Shown piece after piece: positions 24,259 through 34,753 of a stretch of DNA of 34,753 nucleotides. This DNA comes from Bacteroidales bacterium (GTDB lineage Bacteria > Bacteroidota > Bacteroidia > Bacteroidales > UBA932), in NCBI GenBank assembly GCA_017443845.1, contig JAFSXX010000033.1, forward strand, positions 1 to 34,753, written 5' to 3'. Within the stretch, counting starts at the first letter, position 1. Each line of letters begins with the position of its first letter. A model generated the notes under the pieces. That model saw nothing but the letters and a program-made list of their open reading frames with translations, made no database searches and was not told the DNA's origin. The position numbers were made by a program, and so were the translations under genes.

Positions 24259-26034
24259 ATGGATACTATCAAATTGACTATAGACAACAGAACCGTGGAA
24301 GTACCCAAAGGTACTACCATTTTGAAGGCTGCTGCACAGATGGGTATCAAGATTCCTACCCTCTGTAATTTCGAGCTCGAAGGCCTCGCCCTCAAGAACC
24401 ATCCGGGCGGATGCCGCGTATGCGTCGTGGAAGTGGCCGGCCGCCGCAACCTCGCTCCCGCCTGCATTACCGAATGTATGCCGGACATGGTTGTCAAGAC
24501 CAACTCCCTCCGTGCCGTCAACGCACGCAGGACCGTCCTCGAGCTTATGCTCTCCGATCACCCGAATGACTGCCTCCAGTGCCCCAAGAGCGGCAAGTGC
24601 GAGCTCCAGGCTCTCGCTGCCGATATGGGCATCCGCGACATCCCCTACAAGGGCGAGCAGTCCCACTATCCCATCACCCTTTCGCCTTCGATCGTCCGCG
24701 ATGAGAGCAAGTGCATAATGTGCCGCCGTTGCGAGGCTGTATGCCACGAGTATCAGACCGTCGGCGCCATCGGCGCTGTGGACCGCGGATTCCCCGCTGT
24801 GGTTTCGACCGCATTCGGCGAGGACCTCATCGATACCAACTGTATCTTCTGCGGCCAGTGCATCGCTGTCTGCCCTGTCGGAGCCCTCTCCGAGGTTGAC
24901 CATACCGCACGCATCCTCCGCGACATCGCAAATCCCGATGTCAAGACCTGCGTCCAGGTTGCTCCCGCAGTCCGCGTCGCTCTCGGCGAGGAGTTCGGTA
25001 TGCCTGCCGGCAGCATCGTCACCGGCAAGATCGCAGCCGCCCTCAAGGCTATCGGTTTCGACTATGTATTCGATACCGACTGGTCCGCCGACCTTACCAT
25101 CATGGAGGAAGGCACCGAGTTCATCCAGCGCATCAAGGCTTATCTCGCCGGCGACAAGAACGTCAAGATTCCTTTGATGACCTCCTGCTGCCCCGCTTGG
25201 GTCAACTTCTACGAGAAGTTCTATCCCGAACTCCGCGAGTATCCTTCCACCGCCAAGTCCCCTCAGGGAATGTTCGGCGCTACCGTGAAGAGCTATTTCG
25301 CAGAGAAGATCGGCGTCGCCCGCGAGAATCTCGTAAGCGTCTCGGTGATGCCTTGCGTCGCCAAGAAGTACGAGTGCGAGCGTGAGGAACTCAAGGTGAA
25401 CGGCAATCCCGACGTGGATTACTCCATCACCACCCGCGAGCTTGCACGCCTCATCAAGATCTGCAACATCGACTTCACTACCCTTCCCGAAGCCAAGTTC
25501 GACTCTCCTCTCGGTGAATCCACCGGTGCGGCTGTCATCTTCGGCGTAACGGGCGGTGTGATGGAGGCGGCTCTCCGTACCGCAGTCGAGGTGCTTACCG
25601 GCAAGACCCTCCCGAAGATCGACTTCGAAGAGGTCCGCGGCCTGGAAGGCCTCCGCGAGGCTACAGTTTCCGTTCCCGGCGTTGCCGACGTCAAGGTCGC
25701 TGTCGCTTACGGAATGAAGAACGCGCGCGTCATCATGGAGCAGATAAAGGCCGGCAACTGCCCTTATCACTTCGTTGAGGTTATGGCATGCCCCGGCGGT
25801 TGCATCGACGGTGCAGGACAGCCTTACCACCACGGCGACGCTTCCATCGTGAAGGCACGCTATGCTGCAATTTACAAGGCAGACCGCGAGATGCCTCTGC
25901 GCAAGTCCCACGAGAATCCCGAGATCATCTCGATCTACAAAGAGTTCTACGGCGAGCCTTGCTCCGAGAAGTCGCACCATCTGCTTCACACTCACTACTT
26001 CGACAAGAAGATCAAGTTTGACATCGAAAAATAA
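24259..26034 (+). CDS. hndD: [FeFe] hydrogenase catalytic subunit (HndD/HydA)
   Basis: It produces or consumes H2 at the H-cluster. The 591 residues comprise an N-terminal plant-type [2Fe-2S] domain (LCNFELEG...GGCRVCVVEV), a His/Cys [4Fe-4S] motif (HPNDCLQCPKSGKCELQ), two [4Fe-4S] ferredoxin motifs (CIMCRRCEAVC, CIFCGQCIAVCP), the H domain and a short C-terminal small-subunit domain (HHLLHTHYFDKK). H-cluster motifs are complete: TSCCPAW (Cys310), MPCVAKKYE (Cys366) and EVMACPGGCIDGAGQP (Cys511, Cys515). Size and partners fit group A trimeric, electron-bifurcating/confurcating enzymes. The HydEFG maturases needed for the cluster are not in the window. Confidence 0.96.
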   Translation: MDTIKLTIDNRTVEVPKGTTILKAAAQMGIKIPTLCNFELEGLALKNHPGGCRVCVVEVAGRRNLAPACITECMPDMVVKTNSLRAVNARRTVLELMLSDHPNDCLQCPKSGKCELQALAADMGIRDIPYKGEQSHYPITLSPSIVRDESKCIMCRRCEAVCHEYQTVGAIGAVDRGFPAVVSTAFGEDLIDTNCIFCGQCIAVCPVGALSEVDHTARILRDIANPDVKTCVQVAPAVRVALGEEFGMPAGSIVTGKIAAALKAIGFDYVFDTDWSADLTIMEEGTEFIQRIKAYLAGDKNVKIPLMTSCCPAWVNFYEKFYPELREYPSTAKSPQGMFGATVKSYFAEKIGVARENLVSVSVMPCVAKKYECEREELKVNGNPDVDYSITTRELARLIKICNIDFTTLPEAKFDSPLGESTGAAVIFGVTGGVMEAALRTAVEVLTGKTLPKIDFEEVRGLEGLREATVSVPGVADVKVAVAYGMKNARVIMEQIKAGNCPYHFVEVMACPGGCIDGAGQPYHHGDASIVKARYAAIYKADREMPLRKSHENPEIISIYKEFYGEPCSEKSHHLLHTHYFDKKIKFDIEK

Positions 26035-26041
26035 TTGAACT

Positions 26042-26527
26042 ATGTGTGGATCAAAAGTAAATATTTCGGAAGCCAATTACCTTAAGATCAAGGAAATCTG
26101 CGCTTCGTTCAATAATAATCCCGGTGACCTGATCAATGTGCTTCACAAGACTCAGGACCACTTCGGATATCTTCCCGTCGAAGTCCAGAAGGTCGTGGCC
26201 GAGTGCCTCGGAATTCCTGCTACGAGGGTTTACGGCGTCGTTTCGTTCTACAGCTTCTTCACAATGAAGCCCAAGGGCAAATACGCCATCTCCGTCTGCC
26301 TCGGTACCGCTTGCTATGTCAAGGGCGGCGAAAAGATCCTGGACGCTCTCAAGAGCGAGCTCAAGATCAGCGAAGGCGAAGTTACCCCCGACGGCAAGTT
26401 CTCCATCGACGTGCTCCGCTGTGTCGGTGCCTGCGGTCTTGCTCCCGTGATGACCATCAACGGCAAGACGTACGGCCGTCTCGTTCCCGAGGATGTCAAG
26501 GGCATCCTCGCTGAGTACGCTGACTAA
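26042..26527 (+). CDS. hndA: NuoE-like [2Fe-2S] subunit of [FeFe] hydrogenase (HndA/HydC)
   Basis: A 161-residue thioredoxin-like [2Fe-2S] protein of the NuoE/HydC family. It has an N-terminal helical bundle (residues ~10-70, ending GIPATRVYGVVSFYSFF) and the cluster ligands CLGTAC (Cys86, Cys91) and CVGAC (Cys127, Cys131), all present. It partners the HndC flavoprotein. It begins 7 bases after hndD and ends the operon, followed by a hairpin terminator. The gene order B-C-D-A, with the NuoE-like gene last, differs from the A-B-C-D order of Desulfovibrio. Confidence 0.94.
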   Translation: MCGSKVNISEANYLKIKEICASFNNNPGDLINVLHKTQDHFGYLPVEVQKVVAECLGIPATRVYGVVSFYSFFTMKPKGKYAISVCLGTACYVKGGEKILDALKSELKISEGEVTPDGKFSIDVLRCVGACGLAPVMTINGKTYGRLVPEDVKGILAEYAD

Positions 26528-26548
26528 GACAGGCTTTGCTTAGAATCT

Positions 26549-26585
26549 GCGGGCCGGCCCAGTAGGGTCGGCCCGCTTGTTTTAC
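26549..26585 (+). terminator. Terminator of the hnd operon; copy 1 of the repeated palindrome
   Basis: A 12-bp stem (GCGGGCCGGCCC / GGGTCGGCCCGC, one G-T pair) closes an AGTA loop and is followed by TTGTTTTA. It lies 21 bases after the hndA stop and directly before the convergent response-regulator gene, so it may act in both directions. The same palindrome recurs at 31549 and 33783. Confidence 0.85.
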
Positions 26586-27349
26586 TTCGGTTGAATCAGA
26601 AGGTCCATAAGTATTTTACGCCGTTCGGTCGTCAAAGGAATCTCAGTATCCGAATAGGGTGCATCCAATGTGATGATGAAATTTCGACCTTCTCCTGCAT
26701 CAATGCTTTTGATTTTCTCGATGTTTACAATAGTCTGGCGGTTGGCCCGGAAAAACCTCTTTTTATCCAGGCTGGCTGCAAGGTCGAGCAGGGAATGGGT
26801 GTTGGGAATGCCCCAGTTTCCGTCAGAGAGGAATGCTTTGGTATATCCACGTTCGGTGGTAATATAGCATATGTCTTCTACGTTGATAATCAGCATCTTC
26901 TGCCCTTTTTGAAGGAAAAGCCTTTTTCTCACCTTAACTTCGTGGTGTAGGATTTCGCGCGACATAGTGCTGATTTCGTCACCGCCTATTCTTTCGAAAC
27001 GGCTTTCACAGCGGGTCAGGGCCCTTTCGAGCGCGGCATCGGAAACTGGCTTCAGAATATAATCCGCGCAATTGTAATCGAACGCCTTAAGGGCGTATTC
27101 GTCAAATGCTGTGATAAAAACGACCATAGCTTCTGTCTGGACTTTGTCGAAAACCGAGAAAGAGAGGCCATCGTCAATCTTTATATCGGAGAATATTATG
27201 TCGATATCGGGATGATTCTCGAGGAAAGCTATAGAGTTCTTTATACTTGTAGTGCACCCTGCGATATCGATATCCTGGCGAAGCCTGCAAAGCTTCGCTT
27301 CAAGAGCAGCAGCCTGGGTTGCTTCATCTTCTATTATCAAAATCTTCAT
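26582..27349 (-). CDS. LytTR-family response regulator
   Basis: A 255-residue DNA-binding response regulator. The receiver domain (residues ~1-120) has the acidic pair Glu7-Asp8 and the phospho-acceptor Asp55 (IIFSDIKI), with conserved Thr/Lys positions (VVFITAFDEYA, YILKPVSD). The C-terminal LytTR domain (~150-250) contains KMLIINVEDICYITTERGYT, FFRANRQTIVNIEKI and a basic end; such domains bind pairs of direct repeats about two helical turns apart. I use the ATG at 27349, because the upstream alternative is TTG. It overlaps the kinase gene by 26 bases, so the two are translationally coupled. The likely targets are the repeats at 28498 and 31692. Confidence 0.94.
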   Translation of the reverse strand: MKILIIEDEATQAAALEAKLCRLRQDIDIAGCTTSIKNSIAFLENHPDIDIIFSDIKIDDGLSFSVFDKVQTEAMVVFITAFDEYALKAFDYNCADYILKPVSDAALERALTRCESRFERIGGDEISTMSREILHHEVKVRKRLFLQKGQKMLIINVEDICYITTERGYTKAFLSDGNWGIPNTHSLLDLAASLDKKRFFRANRQTIVNIEKIKSIDAGEGRNFIITLDAPYSDTEIPLTTERRKILMDLLIQPK

Positions 27350-28439
27350 CTTCAAGATCTTCAATAAACAGTAAAGGGATGCTTACTGTAAAATAACCGT
27401 TTTCATTATGAATACCAATCTCCTTGCCGGAAAGCGTCCTGTATCTGGACGCTAGATTCTCGAGCCCTTTTCCGGACGATTCCTCCATATCCGTGAGCGG
27501 AAGGATATTGTTGCTGACTTTTATATAATCTCCCTCTTTCGTCACCCTGATGCGGAGGGAATCTTCAGATCCGTGGCGATTATGCTTGACGGCATTTTCC
27601 ACCAAGGGTTGTATGGAAACGGGGGAGACCAGGGGAGAAAGAACGTCTTCCGGAACGTCAATAGTGACATCGACTCCTTTATAGCGGTATTTGAGCAATT
27701 CGGCAAACTGCCTTGTGAAGGAAATCTCTTCTTGCAGAGGAACCAGATGCTTGTCGGCATTGATAACAAGATACCGATACATACCGGTAAGCCTGTCAAG
27801 AAAGAGAGTTGCATCATGGTTGTCTTCTACCATTCCAGCCAACGTGCTGAAGCAGTTGAACATAAAGTGGTTGTCACTTTGTATCGCCAGTTTGTCCAGC
27901 TTTGATTGAAGAGCATCGTACTCCTTCATTTTTGCGCTGTATTCGGCTTTCAAACGGGACTCCTGCTCATCACGGAAACGGCTTATCAGGTACGAAACAA
28001 AGAAAGTTGAAGAAATCGTCGTAACCACTATCCCGTCGGTAAACATCACTTTCCAGAAAATGGATTCCCTGTCCGGATAGATATATTGATACAGCAGAGC
28101 CATTACTACAGTTGACAGGGTGTTCATCACAGTCAGGATCAGAACCTGCCAGAAGAGTCGCCTCATCGTCTTCTCTTCCTTCATAAAGAACAACACGATC
28201 TGCTTGCTGTAAAACAGTGACAGAAAGACGAGAACAGCTACCTCCGCTATGCTTCCGATAAGGTCAGCCGCAATGGTTTTCGCTCTCTGTCCGGGATCGA
28301 GACCGGCATAGTAGCCGATATTGACGAATACCCAGATTGCGGAGCAGAAGATGAAGGCGGCGACGAACAACAGTAAGTGCCTCCTTCTGGCCTCCTCCGG
28401 AGTCGTATTATATGTATTCAGAAATTCGTAATACCTCAT
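27324..28439 (-). CDS. LytS/YehU-type sensor histidine kinase
   Basis: A 371-residue inner-membrane kinase. Four membrane helices (about residues 21-42, 58-80, 95-118 and 134-153) are joined by short loops with no large periplasmic sensor domain. A coiled-coil segment (~155-187) follows, then the His_kinase domain with the phospho-acceptor region SDNHFMFNCFSTLAG (His191) and the N-box PLVENAVKHN (~279-287). The usual NPHFLFN appears here as DNHFMFN; the histidine is kept. G-box residues GKGLENLASR are present. The stimulus is unknown and may come from the membrane itself. Divergent from the exported-protein operon at 28598. Confidence 0.93.
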   Translation of the reverse strand: MRYYEFLNTYNTTPEEARRRHLLLFVAAFIFCSAIWVFVNIGYYAGLDPGQRAKTIAADLIGSIAEVAVLVFLSLFYSKQIVLFFMKEEKTMRRLFWQVLILTVMNTLSTVVMALLYQYIYPDRESIFWKVMFTDGIVVTTISSTFFVSYLISRFRDEQESRLKAEYSAKMKEYDALQSKLDKLAIQSDNHFMFNCFSTLAGMVEDNHDATLFLDRLTGMYRYLVINADKHLVPLQEEISFTRQFAELLKYRYKGVDVTIDVPEDVLSPLVSPVSIQPLVENAVKHNRHGSEDSLRIRVTKEGDYIKVSNNILPLTDMEESSGKGLENLASRYRTLSGKEIGIHNENGYFTVSIPLLFIEDLEDEDFDNRR

Positions 28440-28461
28440 TGCTCTGACTACAATTTTCTCG

Positions 28462-28469
28462 CAAAGTTA
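28462..28469 (-). promoter_or_regulatory. Putative -7 element of the two-component operon
   Basis: TAACTTTG on the minus strand fits TAnnTTTG and lies 22 bases before the kinase start codon. No matching -33 box is seen, suggesting a weaker or differently regulated promoter. Confidence 0.4.
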
Positions 28470-28475
28470 GCCCAA

Positions 28476-28572
28476 GAATTCTGATTGTTCACTAAAAATG
28501 TCGGTTTCAACATCAAAAATGTCGGGTTCAGCAACTTTTTTGCTTCGGCGATAGGTTTCTTCGATACTTTTG
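28476..28572 (+). promoter_or_regulatory. 76-bp shared operator plus promoter of the first exported-protein operon
   Basis: Positions 28476-28551 match 31670-31745 at 70 of 76 bases. Inside are two direct repeats, ATGTCGGTTTCAACA (28498-28512) and ATGTCGGGTTCAGCA (28519-28533), 21 bases apart. Next come TTTTTTG (28536-28542, candidate -33), 22 unrelated bases and TACTTTTG (28565-28572, -7). The ATG is at 28598. The layout suggests an activator, most likely the adjacent LytTR regulator, binding just upstream of the -33 box; this binding is inferred. Confidence 0.72.
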
Positions 28573-28597
28573 TCGATACAATTAAACAAAATGTTAT

Positions 28598-30226
28598 ATG
28601 AAAAGTATTAAAAAATCTTTATTATTTGTATTGTTATTATTTGGTGCAGCATGCTCCAAAGAGTCTGAATCTATCGTATCTTCCTCAAATCTGATTAGTA
28701 ATACAGAGAGTTTAGGTGTATACGAAAAACATTTTTCGGAAATATTGTCCAAAGCAATATATGATTCGGAGCCGATGCGTTCATTTATCAAAAATGAAGC
28801 AATAAAGCAGTTTGACAACGATTTTGATGTGCTGTATGGTATGGTTAAAGATAAAGTGGTTGTAGAGGGTAGATCTTTTAGAGAGATCTTATTGCAATAC
28901 TGTGATTCAGAAAGTCAACTTGAAGAGATTGAGAATGCACTACCACTACTAAATATTCTTGTACCAGATGTGTCCTGGTTGTCAAGCGATGGTTTTTCAG
29001 CTAATAATTGGGATACTGAAGATAATGAGATAGTTGTTACATATCGCGAAGGTAATTGCAATAATGAATATTTCGGTAATGGAGAGGTCGTTTGCGAACT
29101 GGATGAGAATCAGATTCCGGCCTTTCCCTTTCTTGTCGTTAAAAACAATGAAAGGATGATGGTTAGCGGTATCACCCGTAGTGGCTTTACCTATGAGTTT
29201 AAAAATGATGCTTATAATGGTTTATTAACAAAAGGAGGAACTCATAATTATAATGGAACGGTAGTGCCGACAATGATAGGCAACTCTCCGACTGTTACTG
29301 CATCACAATTAAGGCAGTTGAGCCGGAGAGCATACGATGCGTATAATGAATTTGGAGTGAATTCGTCAGTGGCATGTCAAAGAGACTACTGTTATTACCA
29401 GATGACAAACGATAATCTCACAAATGGCATTTTGCAGAGAAATGTATATGAGAAACTATTCAGATTTAAGCTAAACCTGAATAATATTGTTAATTATGAC
29501 GACGATTTAGGTGATCCAATAAAAAACAAATCAATAGATACATCTTTTATATATTACAAAGGAAATAATGATATTGAAGAACTGACTCCGGATGCTGTAA
29601 TGGCTACTGGACTAATGGAACTTAATACAAAGTTTTTTGAAGATGGCAATTTGGAAATAGTTATCAATTGCGTCCGCCAGACATCTTCTGGCCAGACAAT
29701 ACAATCACCATATTACTTTACAGTACAACCTGGTGATTTATTTGAATTCAACAATGTAAGATTCTTTTATATTCACTCTTCATTCTGGCGTAAGGCAAAG
29801 TATACATATGTATTTGATAAGAACTTTATTGTATCTAAATGGTATTATCCAGAAACGGATATATACTTCTTCAATTGGAGCCTTGGTACTAATGCCGTTG
29901 ATTATTATCTTGAAATATCAGAGCAGGATTCCGGTGATACTGTTACAACGGTCGATACCTTTTCTTTCGGATTTACTACCAACATAACTGTTTCTGGTAA
30001 TGAAGAACAGAAGACATCAGCGGGCCTCGGAACCACAACAACAAAAGGATATCAATTCTCTCGTTCACATCAAGAGAATTCTGATCTAATATCCAGATCT
30101 ATCATTAACTATGCTGAAGATTTTGTTCTTAACAGAACAATTAGCGGTAACGATACTACCTTTACCCTTCGCAACTATGATAATAATGCTATATCTGTAT
30201 GTATTATTCCTTCAGAGATGTATTAA
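28598..30226 (+). CDS. Lipoprotein of unknown function (first gene of the LytTR-linked operon)
   Basis: A 542-residue protein starting MKSIKKSLLFVLLLFGAACSK, a clear lipoprotein signal with lipobox GAAC; the mature chain begins at Cys19. The N-terminal third is acidic and helical, ending LLNILVPDVSWLSSDGFS, and IPAFPFLVVKNNERMMVSG follows, a type of segment I associate with large Bacteroidales surface lipoproteins. The C-terminal half is Asn/Tyr/Thr-rich and beta-like, with no metal or catalytic motif I recognise. Codons are clearly richer in A+T than in the metabolic genes nearby. The stop codon overlaps the next start (TAATG). A surface-exposed role is inferred from the signal and context only. 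Confidence 0.75.
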   Translation: MKSIKKSLLFVLLLFGAACSKESESIVSSSNLISNTESLGVYEKHFSEILSKAIYDSEPMRSFIKNEAIKQFDNDFDVLYGMVKDKVVVEGRSFREILLQYCDSESQLEEIENALPLLNILVPDVSWLSSDGFSANNWDTEDNEIVVTYREGNCNNEYFGNGEVVCELDENQIPAFPFLVVKNNERMMVSGITRSGFTYEFKNDAYNGLLTKGGTHNYNGTVVPTMIGNSPTVTASQLRQLSRRAYDAYNEFGVNSSVACQRDYCYYQMTNDNLTNGILQRNVYEKLFRFKLNLNNIVNYDDDLGDPIKNKSIDTSFIYYKGNNDIEELTPDAVMATGLMELNTKFFEDGNLEIVINCVRQTSSGQTIQSPYYFTVQPGDLFEFNNVRFFYIHSSFWRKAKYTYVFDKNFIVSKWYYPETDIYFFNWSLGTNAVDYYLEISEQDSGDTVTTVDTFSFGFTTNITVSGNEEQKTSAGLGTTTTKGYQFSRSHQENSDLISRSIINYAEDFVLNRTISGNDTTFTLRNYDNNAISVCIIPSEMY

Positions 30227-30894
30227 TGATGAAGAATAAGAAAACCATAATACTCTGTCTTATTACTTTTGCTCTCATTGTATGTTCCTGTACCAAAGAC
30301 GATGGTGTCAGCCGTTTTTCAAAGGATATTGCAGGCCAGTATATGTGTGAATCGGCTGTCTGGATGTCAGACAACGACATCGATATCAACGGAGATTCGG
30401 TGTCGGGCAAAGACTTGTTCGCAGAATTCTCCGGAATAGACTGGGCTGAAGAAGCCCTGAACAAATCGGTAATTCACGTGATTCCCGTTCGGGATTTCAA
30501 TGTACTCAGCGAAAGCAGTTTTGTGAAGATTCCGCTCCAGGGGCTCAAGTATGATGAGAATAGTAATACATACTCGCAATTCGGAGTAGAATTCTGTGCC
30601 TTTGGGTTTGCTTATTCTATCAATCCTGACGGTATGGTATCGTTTTCAGTGAAAGATATCATTTCAATCGATAACATTGATACATTTTTGCCCAAAAGTG
30701 AGGATATCAAGATTAATAGCATTGGGAACAATTATCTGTACATCACTGTCAACACGTTATTCTATGACTTCAGGACCGCTGAATTGGTAAGCGGACCGGT
30801 GCAATATACATTCCGCAGATTATACAGCGATCCTTATAAATGCACCCTCGACACATTTATACCCTATTACAGCTCAAACAAATCTTCGCTATGA
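30226..30894 (+). CDS. Small lipoprotein of unknown function
   Basis: A 222-residue protein beginning MMKNKKTIILCLITFALIVCSCTKDDG, with a lipobox before Cys21 and an acidic post-Cys stretch (KDDG) that could favour surface export in Bacteroidota. The body (ISKDIAGQYMCESAVWMSDNDIDINGDSVSGKDLFAEFSG and on) has the look of small Bacteroidales lipoproteins with a beta-sandwich fold, but I do not recognise a named family. It shares a TAATG junction with the gene before and an ATGA junction with the gene after, so the three genes are one translational unit. Confidence 0.78.
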   Translation: MMKNKKTIILCLITFALIVCSCTKDDGVSRFSKDIAGQYMCESAVWMSDNDIDINGDSVSGKDLFAEFSGIDWAEEALNKSVIHVIPVRDFNVLSESSFVKIPLQGLKYDENSNTYSQFGVEFCAFGFAYSINPDGMVSFSVKDIISIDNIDTFLPKSEDIKINSIGNNYLYITVNTLFYDFRTAELVSGPVQYTFRRLYSDPYKCTLDTFIPYYSSNKSSL

Positions 30895-31514
30895 AAAGAA
30901 CTCTCCTTATAATAATGTCAGGCTTTCTTATAAGCCTTCTCTCAGTTGAAACCTCAGCCGCAGACAGGTATGTCGGCGGAAGCGTTTCGGCAGGGGTTGC
31001 AACAACATTCGGAGGCGTCAGGGCTAATTCTTTTTCCCTGATGCTGTCACCTGAATACGGTTACTGCCTCGGCGACAAGTGGATGGCCGGGGTCCGGCTT
31101 TCTCTCGGTATTACTGCCGGCGACGGTGAAAAATCAGTATCGTCGAAAAACAGCATGATTGAGACGAAGTCAACCTCCTCGGCCAACCTCTTTACCGCAG
31201 GACTCAATCCGTATGCGCGGTATAAGTGCCTTTCCTGGAATTCCCTGGCTGTATGGGCGGAGGGCAACCTGAATCTGTCGGATATCTTTGCCGCCGGAGG
31301 TTCAGCCAATACTTTTATTGCAGGAATCTCCGTTAAGCCGGTAGTCACATACGATATCTCTCCTAAAGTGTCTTTGTGTTCAGGCCTTGATTTATTCAGT
31401 ATAGGATACTCTTTCTTTGATGTTTCAGGAAGCACATATTCTACGGCGTACCTTGGCATTGACTCTTCGCTGAATCTAGGCGACATCACTATCGGCTTGA
31501 TCTACAAGTTGTAG
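30891..31514 (+). CDS. Probable outer-membrane beta-barrel protein
   Basis: A 207-residue protein with a signal peptide (MKRTLLIIMSGFLISLLSVETSAA) and alternating hydrophobic/polar strands through to the end (VGGSVSAGVATTFGG, MLSPEYGYCLGDKWMAGVRLSLG, ...). It finishes ITIGLIYKL, with aromatic and hydrophobic terminal residues as in small eight-stranded OmpW/OmpA-like barrels. Function and substrate are unknown. The ATG at 30891 overlaps the preceding stop codon (ATGA). It is less A+T-rich than the first gene of the operon. A palindrome, possibly a terminator, follows 34 bases after the stop. Confidence 0.78.
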   Translation: MKRTLLIIMSGFLISLLSVETSAADRYVGGSVSAGVATTFGGVRANSFSLMLSPEYGYCLGDKWMAGVRLSLGITAGDGEKSVSSKNSMIETKSTSSANLFTAGLNPYARYKCLSWNSLAVWAEGNLNLSDIFAAGGSANTFIAGISVKPVVTYDISPKVSLCSGLDLFSIGYSFFDVSGSTYSTAYLGIDSSLNLGDITIGLIYKL

Positions 31515-31548
31515 ATATCGTTAAAACAGACTGTCGTTCTCAAGAACT

Positions 31549-31579
31549 GCGGGCCGACCCAGTAGGGTCGGCCCGCTTT
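31549..31579 (+). terminator. Repeated palindrome, copy 2, after the first exported-protein operon
   Basis: GCGGGCCGACCC (31549-31560), loop AGTA, GGGTCGGCCCGC (31565-31576): a perfect 12-bp stem followed by only three T's. It probably terminates or protects the transcript end. Apart from one base it equals the copies at 26549 and 33783. Confidence 0.7.
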
Positions 31580-31669
31580 GCCATCCATGTTTTTATGCCA
31601 TTTTATGGACGGGAAGACACCCGCCCGTTGCCGTTGTCTCCGTTAAGCGAAGTGCTTGCGGCGGAACTC

Positions 31670-31766
31670 GAATTCTGATTATTCACCCAAAATGTCGGTT
31701 TCAACATCGAAAATGTCGGGTTCAGCAACTTTTTTGTCTCGGCGAAACAATATTTAAATAGTTTTG
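31670..31766 (+). promoter_or_regulatory. 76-bp shared operator plus promoter of the C10 protease operon
   Basis: Second copy of the element at 28476. The direct repeats are ATGTCGGTTTCAACA (31692-31706) and ATGTCGGGTTCAGCA (31713-31727), again 21 bases apart. TTTTTTG ends at 31736, then 22 bases that differ from the first copy, then TAGTTTTG (31759-31766). The leader before the ATG at 31834 is longer than at the first operon. Confidence 0.72.
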
Positions 31767-31833
31767 CCACTCGACAATAAACATAATTGTACTTGTTTTA
31801 TAAAATGATCAGTTATTATTAACTTTACGAAGA

Positions 31834-33069
31834 ATGAAAAAAAGATTTTTGCCTATTGTGGCCTTTTTGTTTTCGGCTTGTTCTATTGAGGGCGTAACAG
31901 AAGAACCTTTAACTACAACAGAACAATCTTCAATAATCACAATCTCAGAAGCTCTGAAAAACCTTGACTCGTTTTATGAGACGATAAATTCTAGCGGTGG
32001 AATCACAAGAAGTCAGCGAAATCGTGCCATTGATGAGATTATTACTGTAAAACCCTCAGATATTGAAGTGCATACTAAGTCTTCAGATGAGTCTTTCAGT
32101 ACAGATGAACCTCTCGTTTATCTTATTAATTACCAAAATGATGGCGGATATGCCATTCTTGCAGCTAATAGTAACTTGCCTGATCCCGTAATAGCTGTGA
32201 CCGAAAAAGGAACAATTGACGGGAACCTTATGATAGAAGACAACAATGTGAGTCAAGAAAGCGATTTTTCCGCATTTATGCAGAATGTTATAGGTAATTA
32301 TCTTGTTAATGTTGGATCTGATGATCAGGAAACAGAGATTGAAACAAGAAATAATACAGCATTGCTTAATGTTTCCCCGTTATTTCCCAATTGGTGGTAT
32401 CAGGAAGCCGAGTTTTCTAAATATTGTCTAAACGAGGCAGGAGAAAGATGTCTAGTTGGCTGTGTAGGGTTGGCGACAGCAATGGCATTATGCCGTTACA
32501 AAAAGAATTCATCTTTTGTGCATGCATATGGTACAAACTATAATTGCAAGGATATGCAAGATTTTCTTCATTCTCCCAAGCAGGTTGTAATTCAAGAGAG
32601 AGAGTCCTTGGCAGATTCTGTTTTCAGATATGTGGCAGACGTGGCAAAAGCTGTACATACGACTTTCGGTACCGAAAGATCACATGCATCACTTCAAGAG
32701 GCCGCCATCTACTTCCACTCAATACAGATATACACAGCAGAAAGGCATTTGAATTACAAGTTGGATTATGTGACCGATATGCTTCCTTCTGGAAAGCCTG
32801 TAGTTATGGCAGGATTCAATAATATCACATTTTCCCACGGACATGCTTGGATAGTGGATGGAATCCAGCAATCATACAAGAGCAACGGCAGCGTAGCTAC
32901 ATATCTTCACTGCAACTGGGGCTATTGGGGCGTGTCCAATGGATATTATGCTTCCAAAGTCTTTTCTCCTAGAACCGGACCAGAATATCAAGATGTCAAC
33001 ATTGATAACACAGCCTCCGAAAGAGCAGAACACAATTATAATTGTTATTACAGAACATTAACATATTGA
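31834..33069 (+). CDS. C10 family (streptopain-like) cysteine protease, lipoprotein
   Basis: A 411-residue secreted protease with the lipoprotein signal MKKRFLPIVAFLFSACS (lipobox FSAC). Residues ~30-190 form a pro-domain resembling the Spi inhibitor fold (ISEALKNLDSFY..., VYLINYQNDGGYAILAANSNLPDPVIAVTEKG). The mature domain has the active-site GCVGLATAMA with Cys210 and GHAWIVDG with His337, followed by HCNWGYWGVSNGYY, as in streptopain, interpain and Bacteroides Bfp/Btp proteases. The catalytic pair is intact. Transcribed from a copy of the 76-bp operator, with a lipoprotein gene 5 bases downstream. The substrate is unknown; host or competitor proteins are plausible. Confidence 0.9.
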   Translation: MKKRFLPIVAFLFSACSIEGVTEEPLTTTEQSSIITISEALKNLDSFYETINSSGGITRSQRNRAIDEIITVKPSDIEVHTKSSDESFSTDEPLVYLINYQNDGGYAILAANSNLPDPVIAVTEKGTIDGNLMIEDNNVSQESDFSAFMQNVIGNYLVNVGSDDQETEIETRNNTALLNVSPLFPNWWYQEAEFSKYCLNEAGERCLVGCVGLATAMALCRYKKNSSFVHAYGTNYNCKDMQDFLHSPKQVVIQERESLADSVFRYVADVAKAVHTTFGTERSHASLQEAAIYFHSIQIYTAERHLNYKLDYVTDMLPSGKPVVMAGFNNITFSHGHAWIVDGIQQSYKSNGSVATYLHCNWGYWGVSNGYYASKVFSPRTGPEYQDVNIDNTASERAEHNYNCYYRTLTY

Positions 33070-33074
33070 TTGCT

Positions 33075-33764
33075 ATGAAGCATATTTATTTCTGTCTTTA
33101 TATTCTTGCTTTCTTTATTTTGTCCTCATGTGTTCAAGAACCTGATTTATATGAAGCGCGTGGCTCATTTGTGGCAGGATACTCGGTAGGAAACCTTGAT
33201 GCGGAGTTTGTTAATAGGGAGGAAACAAACACGGACTATCCTGAAAAGCTTAGTAATTATAAAATAATTGTACATACAAAACCTGGCGCTCATATTGCTT
33301 GGCACAACTCTCAAGGGCAGGACAGTATTCTTTTTCGTAATATTAGTGTAAAAAACAGCGATACGAGATATCCTTTAAAGTATACTTACAGGTTCCCAAA
33401 TATTTGCTTTTTCCAGAATTTCACTAGCATTGAACTTGCTAGCGATCATGATTATGATGAAATGCATAAAGCGGGAGAATCACTTCTTGACATTGTTTAT
33501 TACCTAGCCTCTTCCTGCCTCAATTTCATAGAAAGTGATTATAAAAAAGAGGAGCCTTATCAAAGAGTGCTAGTTGAGGGAGACTCGTTAACAACACGTG
33601 ATATGACGCTGTTGCGCTGGGGAGTGAACTCATGGCTCTTTGAATTAAACTTCCCCACGCCTCCGACGCTGTCCAAGGTACACAATTTTACAATCACTCT
33701 TGTTGCAGACGACGGCACCAAATATGTCCTTCCCGTCGCGGCGACCTTTGATGAGGAGCAATAG
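33075..33764 (+). CDS. Lipoprotein of unknown function paired with the C10 protease
   Basis: A 229-residue lipoprotein, MKHIYFCLYILAFFILSSCVQEPD, with lipobox LSSC. The rest is mixed beta-like sequence (KIIVHTKPGAHIAWHNSQGQ, ASDHDYDEMHKAGESLLDIVYYL, FTITLVADDGTKYVLPVAATFDEEQ) that I cannot assign to a family. I take the ATG at 33075, five bases after the protease stop; the longer frame overlaps that gene. In Bacteroides and Streptococcus, C10 proteases are often paired with small inhibitors or chaperone-like partners; this protein is larger than those inhibitors, so such a role is only a possibility. Confidence 0.8.
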   Translation: MKHIYFCLYILAFFILSSCVQEPDLYEARGSFVAGYSVGNLDAEFVNREETNTDYPEKLSNYKIIVHTKPGAHIAWHNSQGQDSILFRNISVKNSDTRYPLKYTYRFPNICFFQNFTSIELASDHDYDEMHKAGESLLDIVYYLASSCLNFIESDYKKEEPYQRVLVEGDSLTTRDMTLLRWGVNSWLFELNFPTPPTLSKVHNFTITLVADDGTKYVLPVAATFDEEQ

Positions 33765-33782
33765 TTATAGCATAAAAAATCT

Positions 33783-33813
33783 GCGGGCCGACCCAGTAGG
33801 GTCGGCCCGCTTT
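33783..33813. terminator. Repeated palindrome, copy 3, likely bidirectional terminator
   Basis: A perfect 12-bp stem GCGGGCCGACCC / GGGTCGGCCCGC around AGTA, 19 bases after the lipoprotein stop. On the plus strand TTT follows. On the minus strand the stem is followed within two bases by ATTTTTTATG, a better T-run, so it may also stop transcription of the convergent gene at 33883. Confidence 0.75.
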
Positions 33814-33882
33814 GCGTTTGCCCGGTTCGGCATTCCTCGGACTCTTTTGCTCCCGGCTTGACATTCCGCAGCAGACAAGTGG

Positions 33883-34753
33883 TCATCGCAGTAACTGCAG
33901 CACATCTTCTGGCAGGAGAGAGTTGCCGGCATCGTCATCCGGTCGTATCTTAGTAAATAGTTTATATACGATTTGTTTTCCTTTCGTAAACGGAAGCAAT
34001 GTCGCTATCTTCTTCAATCTGTTTGTCAATAAACGTCCATTCTCGCCGGTTGTCCATTTGCATTCTCCAATGAGAATGGTCGAGTGGTCCAGAGACTCAG
34101 CTACGACATCCAGTTCAATATCCTCGATTTCCGGCTTTCCGTCTTCGCCCATAACTTTAATCTTTCCCCACCAACGACGGGCAATGCCGTAACTGATTCC
34201 GTCAATTATATTTCCGCTCACGGCATCACGACAGATGTGCTCCCACCAATAACCGACATGCCCAGGGAAATCCCGTTCAAGCGCCGTTTCAACAGGAGCA
34301 TTTCGTCTAAGTTCTATGAAGGATTTGTTGGGTACGACAAACTTGTTGTAGAAAAGGAGGAATGGATCGGCAATTCTGTATAGGCCTCTCTTGGAAGACT
34401 TTACAGATTCACCAAAAGGAACCTCTTTCTCCAGGTATCCCAGATCTATCAACTTGGCCAGCGGCCTGGAAAGGTTCGTTGCGGGTTCACCCAGGCGGGA
34501 AGCAATCTCAGACAGGCGGTTGGTCCCGTCCCCGATGACGGACATGAGGGTTGATGTCTTGACGATATCCTTCATATCGTCCCGGAAAAGACGGAGCGGT
34601 TCTTCGTACAAAGCTCCCATGTCAGACAGGATATGTGTCCAAATGGCATCCTTCAGGGAAGCCGAGGATTCCGCCAGTTTCCAGTATCTGGGGACACCGC
34701 CCCAAACGGCGTAATGCTCGATGGTTTCCTGGGCATCCAGATTCAAGGCTTCT
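33883..34753 (-). CDS. DUF234-type ATPase, C-terminal part (truncated at the window edge)
   Basis: The frame remains open to the right end of the window, so the N-terminal P-loop ATPase domain is missing. The visible ~290 residues start in the region ETIEHYAVWGGVPRYW, typical of archaeal/bacterial AAA-type ATPases of the DUF234 group. A winged-helix segment follows (LSEIASRLGEPATNLSRPLAKLIDLGYLEKEVP), then RGLYRIADPFLLFYNKFV, and a C-terminal nuclease-like DUF234 fold (IEDIELDVVAES...ILIGECKW, reminiscent of a D-ExK motif). Cellular role unknown. The TTG at 34746 is not taken as a start. Convergent with the protease operon. Confidence 0.85.
   Translation of the reverse strand, partial: EALNLDAQETIEHYAVWGGVPRYWKLAESSASLKDAIWTHILSDMGALYEEPLRLFRDDMKDIVKTSTLMSVIGDGTNRLSEIASRLGEPATNLSRPLAKLIDLGYLEKEVPFGESVKSSKRGLYRIADPFLLFYNKFVVPNKSFIELRRNAPVETALERDFPGHVGYWWEHICRDAVSGNIIDGISYGIARRWWGKIKVMGEDGKPEIEDIELDVVAESLDHSTILIGECKWTTGENGRLLTNRLKKIATLLPFTKGKQIVYKLFTKIRPDDDAGNSLLPEDVLQLLR

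Follow-up and report, generated by a model that had tools for sequence, protein, structure and literature searches.

Introduction

LytTR-type response regulators recognize pairs of direct repeats, each 9-11 nt long, with spacers of 11-13 nt between them (PMC4847170). One regulator molecule occupies each repeat, binding is cooperative, and the site lies directly upstream of the promoter or its -35 box (PMC2714321). CoxC, a LytTR protein acting as a repressor, binds three repeats 18-21 bp apart (PMC11347149). The housekeeping promoter of Bacteroidetes is composed of a -7 box, TAnnTTTG, and a -33 element, TTTG (PMC7366714). Titles and abstract openings of the papers listed in our literature searches contained no description of a LytTR operator in Bacteroidales. 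In this study, we analysed contig JAFSXX010000033.1 of a Bacteroidales bacterium (assembly GCA_017443845.1), the whole 34,753-nt stretch of which is referred to as the window. An earlier note, prepared from the letters of the window, had pointed out a 76-bp element present at 28476-28551 and 31670-31745 in front of two operons for exported proteins, and had proposed that the adjacent LytTR/LytS-type pair activates both operons as a small local regulon. Its premise that LytTR regulators bind paired direct repeats about two helical turns apart agrees with the repeat and spacer lengths given above.

We consider it highly probable that the two elements are operators of the adjacent LytTR regulator and that this regulator activates both operons. 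The LytTR type of regulon is known; here it has a new operator, a strict promoter geometry and signs of cassette copying in three genomes.

Results

A paired-repeat promoter element in two copies

The recount gave 70 identical positions of 76 between the two elements, as the earlier note had stated, while 12 shuffled pairs reached at most 37 over 76 positions. The repeat ATGTCGGKTTCARCA occurred without mismatch at 28498, 28519, 31692 and 31713, and the search allowing up to two mismatches gave four matches across the window against 0.16 expected. The repeat-pair pattern matched twice in the window (0.00 expected), both pairs having the claimed period of 21 bp, and one TTTTTTG followed the repeats in each copy, again as described beforehand. 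When the whole assembly (2,055,367 bases in 57 contigs) was searched for such pairs with up to three mismatches, only the two window copies were detected; as the assembly is 93% complete, a third copy may still exist. The same strict pattern, also with up to three mismatches, had no match in 39 other genomes of the genus. The shuffles, the window expectation and the assembly count ruled out a chance origin of the paired element.

Both copies contain a Bacteroidetes-type -7 box (TACTTTTG and TAGTTTTG, respectively) located exactly 34 nt past the last TTCA. Since TAnnTTTG boxes alone are common by chance (15 in the window, 10.6 expected), the fixed distance to the repeats is the stronger evidence. 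An additional TTCA precedes the first repeat in each copy. The scan for sigma-70 promoters gave 24 in the window compared to 18.8 (standard deviation 4.1) in shuffles, with none inside either operator.

Operator consensus and promoter geometry in relatives

The kinase gene of the pair was used to scan species-representative genomes, and among the best 80 of 568 relatives full-length orthologues were found at L033, L034 and L035 with 44-46% identity (G, L and C numbers are our handles for genomes, loci and contigs). The other 77 of the best 80, with identity of at most 39% (40% over part in L061), served as the control set. In a scan of 15 orthologue loci for any repeated 12-mer with up to one mismatch, period 21 was represented by 19 repeats, some of which were not operators, followed by periods 33, 42 and 18 with 8, 8 and 7 repeats, respectively. 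A scan knowing only the period found repeats of the same kind in L033 and L034, and none in L035.

Twenty-eight sites were lined up, after leaving out L151, cut by a contig end, and L152-L156, which had been fetched by pattern from genomes without a kinase match and gave no match above 15 bits with a matrix of the repeats. TAnnTTTG was located exactly 34 nt past the last TTCA in 25 of the 28 (19 exact, six with one mismatch). These 25 operators aligned without gaps across 95 nt, giving a consensus of an upstream TTCA, two units of AAAATGTCRGGTTCA at a 21-bp period, CC, a T-rich stretch near -33 and TACTTTTG. The AAAATGTCRGGTTCA unit of about 15 bp is longer than the repeat first described. The upstream third TTCA box is common and lies 21 bp away in most operators; G336 even has arrays of three and four repeats of period 21 (L147:1181-1296 and L148:5701-5816) with the variant half-site TGTAAGGTTCA.

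The circularity of this geometry was tested with the matrix already mentioned, which consists of the repeat columns alone and is blind to the -7 box. In 48 loci (0.66 Mb) it scored above 15 bits 56 times. Of these matches, 21 were followed by an exact TAnnTTTG at offset 34, eight at offset 55 and two at any other offset; with one mismatch allowed, the numbers were 35 at offset 34, 12 at offset 55 and at most four at any other offset. The offset-55 cases were matches starting one repeat upstream. The matrix gave 52 matches on 28 of these loci and five in the 77 control loci (1.23 Mb). Three of the five control matches (L071:7183, L073:7437 and L112:7460) precede a distant kinase relative, at no more than about 850 nt from its matched part.

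The window and its relatives thus share what is expected of a LytTR operator, that is, two direct repeats, a 21-bp period and a constant position relative to TAnnTTTG. The position of the repeats also bears on whether the regulator might bind mainly as a repressor, or in both roles, damping the promoter of its own kinase with secondary effects on the operons. The distal repeat and the upstream TTCA of copy 1 overlie the -33 region of the presumed divergent promoter with the -7 box TAACTTTG, so that the bound regulator could damp its own synthesis, and the three-repeat protein CoxC is a repressor (PMC11347149). The repeats, however, end upstream of the -33 region in all 25 aligned operon promoters, the position of LytTR activators, whereas the CoxC operator overlaps the -35 box. 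Moreover, the element points towards the kinase/regulator genes in G329, G334, G390 and the CAMJBH record. Repression as the main role is accordingly an unlikely account.

Co-occurrence of the operator with the kinase/regulator pair

The profile of seven kinases (A1) detected 19 of 398 genomes of the family at E<=1e-60, 13 of them at 428-653 bits and six at 220-285 bits. The cut was placed after this gap had been seen, and the 13 high-scoring genomes were taken as the orthologue set. A second, half-length kinase match in G334 (C33:37289-37774, 231 bits) corresponds to the N-terminal half in an open frame of 295 amino acids near a contig end.

The operator model R1, a sequence-only model of 95 columns built from the 25 aligned operators, matched 16 of the 398 genomes at E<=1e-6. 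These comprised all 13 genomes with a kinase orthologue and three of the 385 others (Fisher 7e-22), the training set of R1 having included 12 of the 13 orthologue genomes plus G404. With the training genomes excluded, the operator was present in both remaining kinase genomes (G343 and G623) and in two (G351 and G432) of about 676 kinase-less genomes of both searches, a few of which were counted twice (Fisher p 2.6e-5). When the scan was extended over the order (295 genomes, 184 genera, E<=1e-5), R1 matched only the window genome and G623, and the kinase profile only these two (322 bits in G623) and G652 (211 bits). G623 belongs to another family; its operator and kinase gene are at most about 50 bp apart and divergent, like those of the window, and the -7 box of this operator, with one mismatch, keeps the usual distance.

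In the leave-one-genome-out analysis, 20 of 22 loci scored 29.9-81.6. Among the kinase loci, 14 of 16 scored 29.9-80.1, including 10 of the 12 fetched by the kinase alone, while the 77 control loci reached at most 20.8 (median 2.4) with the full matrix. The conservation in related genomes, left as a question by the earlier note, is therefore seen as the same operator at 14 of 16 orthologous kinase/regulator loci. A looser family pattern with up to two mismatches matched 43 of 398 genomes, compared to four for the reversed control pattern; seven of the 43 were confirmed in place by the 95-column model, and this pattern was used for leads only. For the weaker kinase relatives in G213, G313 and G295, weak operator-like sites of 20-28 bits were seen (L187:8923-9017, L188:6990-7084 and L186:10364-10458, respectively), where they precede genes for large proteins with signal-like starts.

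The same distribution has to be weighed against another transcription factor binding the element, with the kinase/regulator pair as one more of its targets. The kinase/regulator genes standing first behind the element in the four genomes named above would suit such a factor, as would the three family genomes with the element and no kinase orthologue. On the other hand, the 21-bp direct repeats and the GTTCA-like core fit LytTR sites as the cited texts describe them, and the presence of the element goes with that of the kinase in all 13 kinase-carrying family genomes and in G623 (no unbiased search for other co-occurring genes was made). It also stands after the pair and before a lipoprotein gene in L033, and is divergent from the kinase gene in the window, L143, L184 and G623. 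A different factor is, in our judgement, quite improbable, and the LytTR regulator of the pair is preferred.

Genes behind the operators

In the fetched loci, 40 sites of at least 14 bits were counted after removal of overlapping shifted matches in L147, L148 and L150, and 32 of these exceeded 40 bits. The first gene behind the 32 strong sites was the kinase of the pair in four cases and a gene passing the export filter, a crude hydropathy/lipobox filter, in 28. All 28 non-regulator lead genes thus passed, compared with 168 of 479 non-overlapping open reading frames (ORFs) in the same loci; at the eight weaker sites, four lead genes passed. As the elements precede genes for exported proteins and usually accompany the same pair, they very probably form the gene set of that regulator. 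The proposed link between the pair and the element therefore holds, but the regulon, local in the window, is distributed over several contigs in G334 and G336. In G334, two operators are on contig C2 and further ones on C13 and on C34, the contig that also encodes the full-length kinase, which indicates that targets can be in trans.

The genes behind the two elements had been called unrelated. This is correct within the window, but elsewhere both lead-gene families have homologues behind the same operator. Family A, the first gene of operon 1 (Table 1), has homologues with 30-32% identity that stand first downstream of operators in G336, G390 and G434. Across the 13 orthologue genomes, family A consisted of four genes, all directly behind operators, and the profile built from these four detected only fragments in G118 among 19 genomes without the orthologue. 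The C10 peptidase gene of operon 2 has a homologue in G334 that also follows an operator, its contig lacking the full-length kinase gene. Nine family B proteins behind operators, that of the window included, could be aligned, the others with 18-38% identity to it. Small proteins of outer-membrane type also recur behind operators at low similarity (13-28%), and genes for a TonB-dependent receptor and a DUF4249 lipoprotein follow the operator in G336 and, by look only, in G404. Pfam named no bacteriocin or pheromone gene among 16 target or neighbour proteins, counted without the kinase and regulator (ORFs of at least 60 amino acids).

Features of the window

The features of the locus are listed in Table 1. 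Pfam confirmed the LytTR and His_kinase genes of the pair claimed at 26582-28439. The regulator was taken to start with the ATG at 27349, an ORF start at 27364 being also possible; it shares 42-56% identity with six orthologues, in which the phospho-acceptor D55 and the acidic pocket E7-D8 are invariant. The kinase motifs H191-F-x-F-N, N282-A-x-K-H-N and G325-L326 are invariant in seven orthologues (43-47% identity). Judged from these residues, the catalytic motifs of the kinase are intact, and its pairing with the regulator is based on gene adjacency.

Pfam analysis of the five operon products gave a match for the C10 peptidase only. The AlphaFold2 (AF2) model of the family B protein was beta-rich with a mean predicted local distance difference test (pLDDT) score of 81.5, and the fold search with it against the PDB gave no match at E<=0.001. 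The predicted structure of the family A protein had a mean pLDDT of 51 and was not used. The third product of operon 1 is perhaps a small outer-membrane barrel.

Table 1. Coordinates of the pair, the putative operators and the downstream genes in the window
Feature	Position	Strand	Details
Response regulator, receiver and LytTR DNA-binding domains	26582..27349	-	Pfam PF00072 and PF04397 above cut-off
Membrane sensor histidine kinase, His_kinase class	27324..28439	-	Pfam PF06580, 1e-13
Presumed divergent kinase/regulator promoter	28462..28469	-	-7 box TAACTTTG; role inferred
Putative operator-promoter, copy 1	28478..28572	+	TTCA 28488-28491; repeats 28495-28509 and 28516-28530; TTTTTTG 28536-28542; -7 box TACTTTTG 28565-28572; model E 2.3e-15, in training set
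Operon 1 gene 1, 542-aa lipoprotein, family A	28598..30226	+	No Pfam match
Operon 1 gene 2, small lipoprotein-like protein, family B	30229..30894	+	D-I-N-G-D motif; alignment with 8 others
Operon 1 gene 3, exported protein	30891..31514	+	28% identical to same-operon gene of G336
GC-rich 28-bp hairpin after operon 1	31549..31576	+	Near-identical at 26549-26576 and 33783-33810
Putative operator-promoter, copy 2	31672..31766	+	TTCA 31682-31685; repeats 31689-31703 and 31710-31724; TTTTTTG 31730-31736; -7 box TAGTTTTG 31759-31766; model E 1.0e-15, in training set
Operon 2 gene 1, C10 peptidase lipoprotein with Spi propeptide	31834..33069	+	PF01640 4e-20; PF13734 1e-6
Operon 2 gene 2, lipoprotein	33075..33764	+	No family match

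Origin of the copies and the AT-rich island

The similarity of the copies was examined at poorly conserved positions. The identity there was 68% for the window pair, 74% for the L034 pair and 79-84% for three pairs of L181, whereas copies from different genomes showed a mean of 30%, with one pair (G334/G351) at 68%. The copying signal was seen in five of 21 within-genome pairs, belonging to three of ten multi-copy genomes, and the other 16 pairs were at 21-53%. The likeness at poorly conserved positions indicates that cassettes were probably copied within three genomes. In the window, the flank identity ends at the element edge (upstream flank 27%), while the upstream identity extends for at least 60 nt in L034 (87%) and in one L181 pair (90%). 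The region L034:5500-10800 additionally contains a 187-nt sequence six times (61-86% alike) and stretches of 211 and 243 nt twice, around operators.

Copies of this kind, together with the longer duplicated flanks of L034, might suggest a mobile or recombinational repeat, or a transcript leader, without a regulatory role. This is hardly credible in view of the two copies in the assembly and the -7 distance that is fixed across genomes. A transcript leader was ruled out by the position of the repeats, on the upstream side of the -7 box, and there was no Rfam match at gathering thresholds.

The G+C content is 35-46% across the regulator and both operons (26000-34000) and 51-60% in the 6 kb upstream. 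The strict operator is present in one of 40 genus members, the other members having no match to R1 at E<=1e-6. The low G+C content and this distribution suggest that the region was probably acquired. The hairpin in Table 1 occurs exactly three times in the assembly with up to three mismatches (40-nt context 83-95% alike), and these copies bound the regulator-plus-operon-1 block and the operon-2 block. The terminator scan called the copies at 26549 and 33783 but not that at 31549, which has fewer Ts in its tail. In the search for an empty site, four members of the genus (G020, G027, G031 and G039), which carry the 26042-26527 gene, had no island match in the fetched stretches, and other genes follow where read; no empty site was shown. 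A tentative view, which we think possible but doubtful, is that the regulon grows by copying an operator-promoter cassette of about 76-160 bp to unrelated genes for exported proteins, the AT-rich patchy island with its own pair being a travelling surface-protein module that can be re-loaded, and not a gene set that stays fixed.

Two further observations concern the ends of the window. A DUF234-type protein with a winged-helix match is encoded after the island on the other strand (33883-34746), and ORFs on both strands at 527-847 and 1652-2396 have peptide strings in common, which suggests that a dispersed DNA repeat lies near the window start.

Discussion

What has been observed is the anatomy of the sequence, its fixed geometry, the joint occurrence of operator and kinase, and target families that recur; these observations can be combined in the following mechanism. 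The membrane kinase would sense a signal and phosphorylate the regulator, a dimer of which would occupy the two repeats on one helix face. A further regulator molecule might bind at the upstream TTCA box, for which the three-repeat binding of CoxC is a precedent. The bound regulator would sit just upstream of the -33 region, with the -7 box 34 nt downstream from the last TTCA, contact RNA polymerase at the -33 region and aid the housekeeping sigma factor. The resulting transcription of 28598-31514 and 31834-33764 would supply exported lipoproteins, an outer-membrane-type protein and the C10 peptidase. Direct binding, activation rather than repression, and dependence on phosphorylation are presumed steps of this scheme.

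Several observations weigh against this interpretation. In G351, G404 and G432, an operator match is present but no kinase orthologue. Conversely, the six weaker kinase relatives had no operator at E<=1e-6 (matches of 1e-4 to 0.006 in three, 2.3e-5 in G313 and none at E<=0.01 in the rest), and G652 had none at E<=1e-5. No operator was found in L177, the regulator contig of G336, the operators of which are on two other contigs, or in L035, the contig of which ends 276 nt past the regulator. The genome scans score the best few candidates per genome (at most 10 and at most five), which makes absences uncertain. Regarding the geometry, three of the 28 sites (L150:6356, L181:7136 and L188:7032) lack the 34-nt spacing and were excluded from the model; the -7 box of L150:6356 is one repeat (21 nt) further downstream. 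The window copies have their upstream TTCA 18 bp, rather than 21 bp, from the TTCA of the first repeat, and their TTTG is separated from the -7 box by 22 nt compared with about 20 nt in most relatives, where the stretch corresponding to TTTTTTG is T-rich but variable. Finally, binding and activation by the regulator are deduced from sequence.

The present analysis describes, for a LytTR two-component system of Bacteroidales-type bacteria, an operator whose geometry relative to the promoter is rigid and by which members of the regulon can be read from sequence in uncultured species. The pattern assigns an input to nameless lipoprotein families and C10 peptidases, and the copying signature in three genomes offers a case in which the growth of a regulon through duplicated promoters can be tested. 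The three control matches before distant kinase relatives also hint that this type of motif is wider in Bacteroidota.

Among the described systems, PlnC/PlnD of Lactobacillus plantarum likewise uses two direct repeats about two helical turns apart, directly upstream of the promoter and shared by several operons including the regulatory one (PMC2714321). It differs in its 9-bp repeats TACGTTAAT, 12-bp spacer and -35/-10 boxes, whereas the present system has the AAAATGTCRGGTTCA unit of about 15 bp, TAnnTTTG and a PF06580 kinase. RcoM/CoxC resembles it in three TTC-containing direct repeats about two turns apart, the third corresponding here to the TTCA box (PMC11347149). CoxC is, in contrast, a membrane-bound, single-component repressor, while the system here is two-component and has two full repeats in most cases. 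The promoter has the -7 box of the Bacteroidetes sigma-ABfr type, for which TAnnTTTG at -7 and TTTG near -33 are described (PMC7366714), but in the present system this box keeps a fixed distance of 34 nt to a repeat of activator type. YpdA/YpdB of Escherichia coli has the same kinase/regulator architecture, and its repeat GGCATTTCAT resembles RGKTTCA (PMC4847170). In the present system, several operons for exported proteins stand behind the operator, with apparent autoregulation in some genomes. YpdB differs in having one known main target, yhjX.

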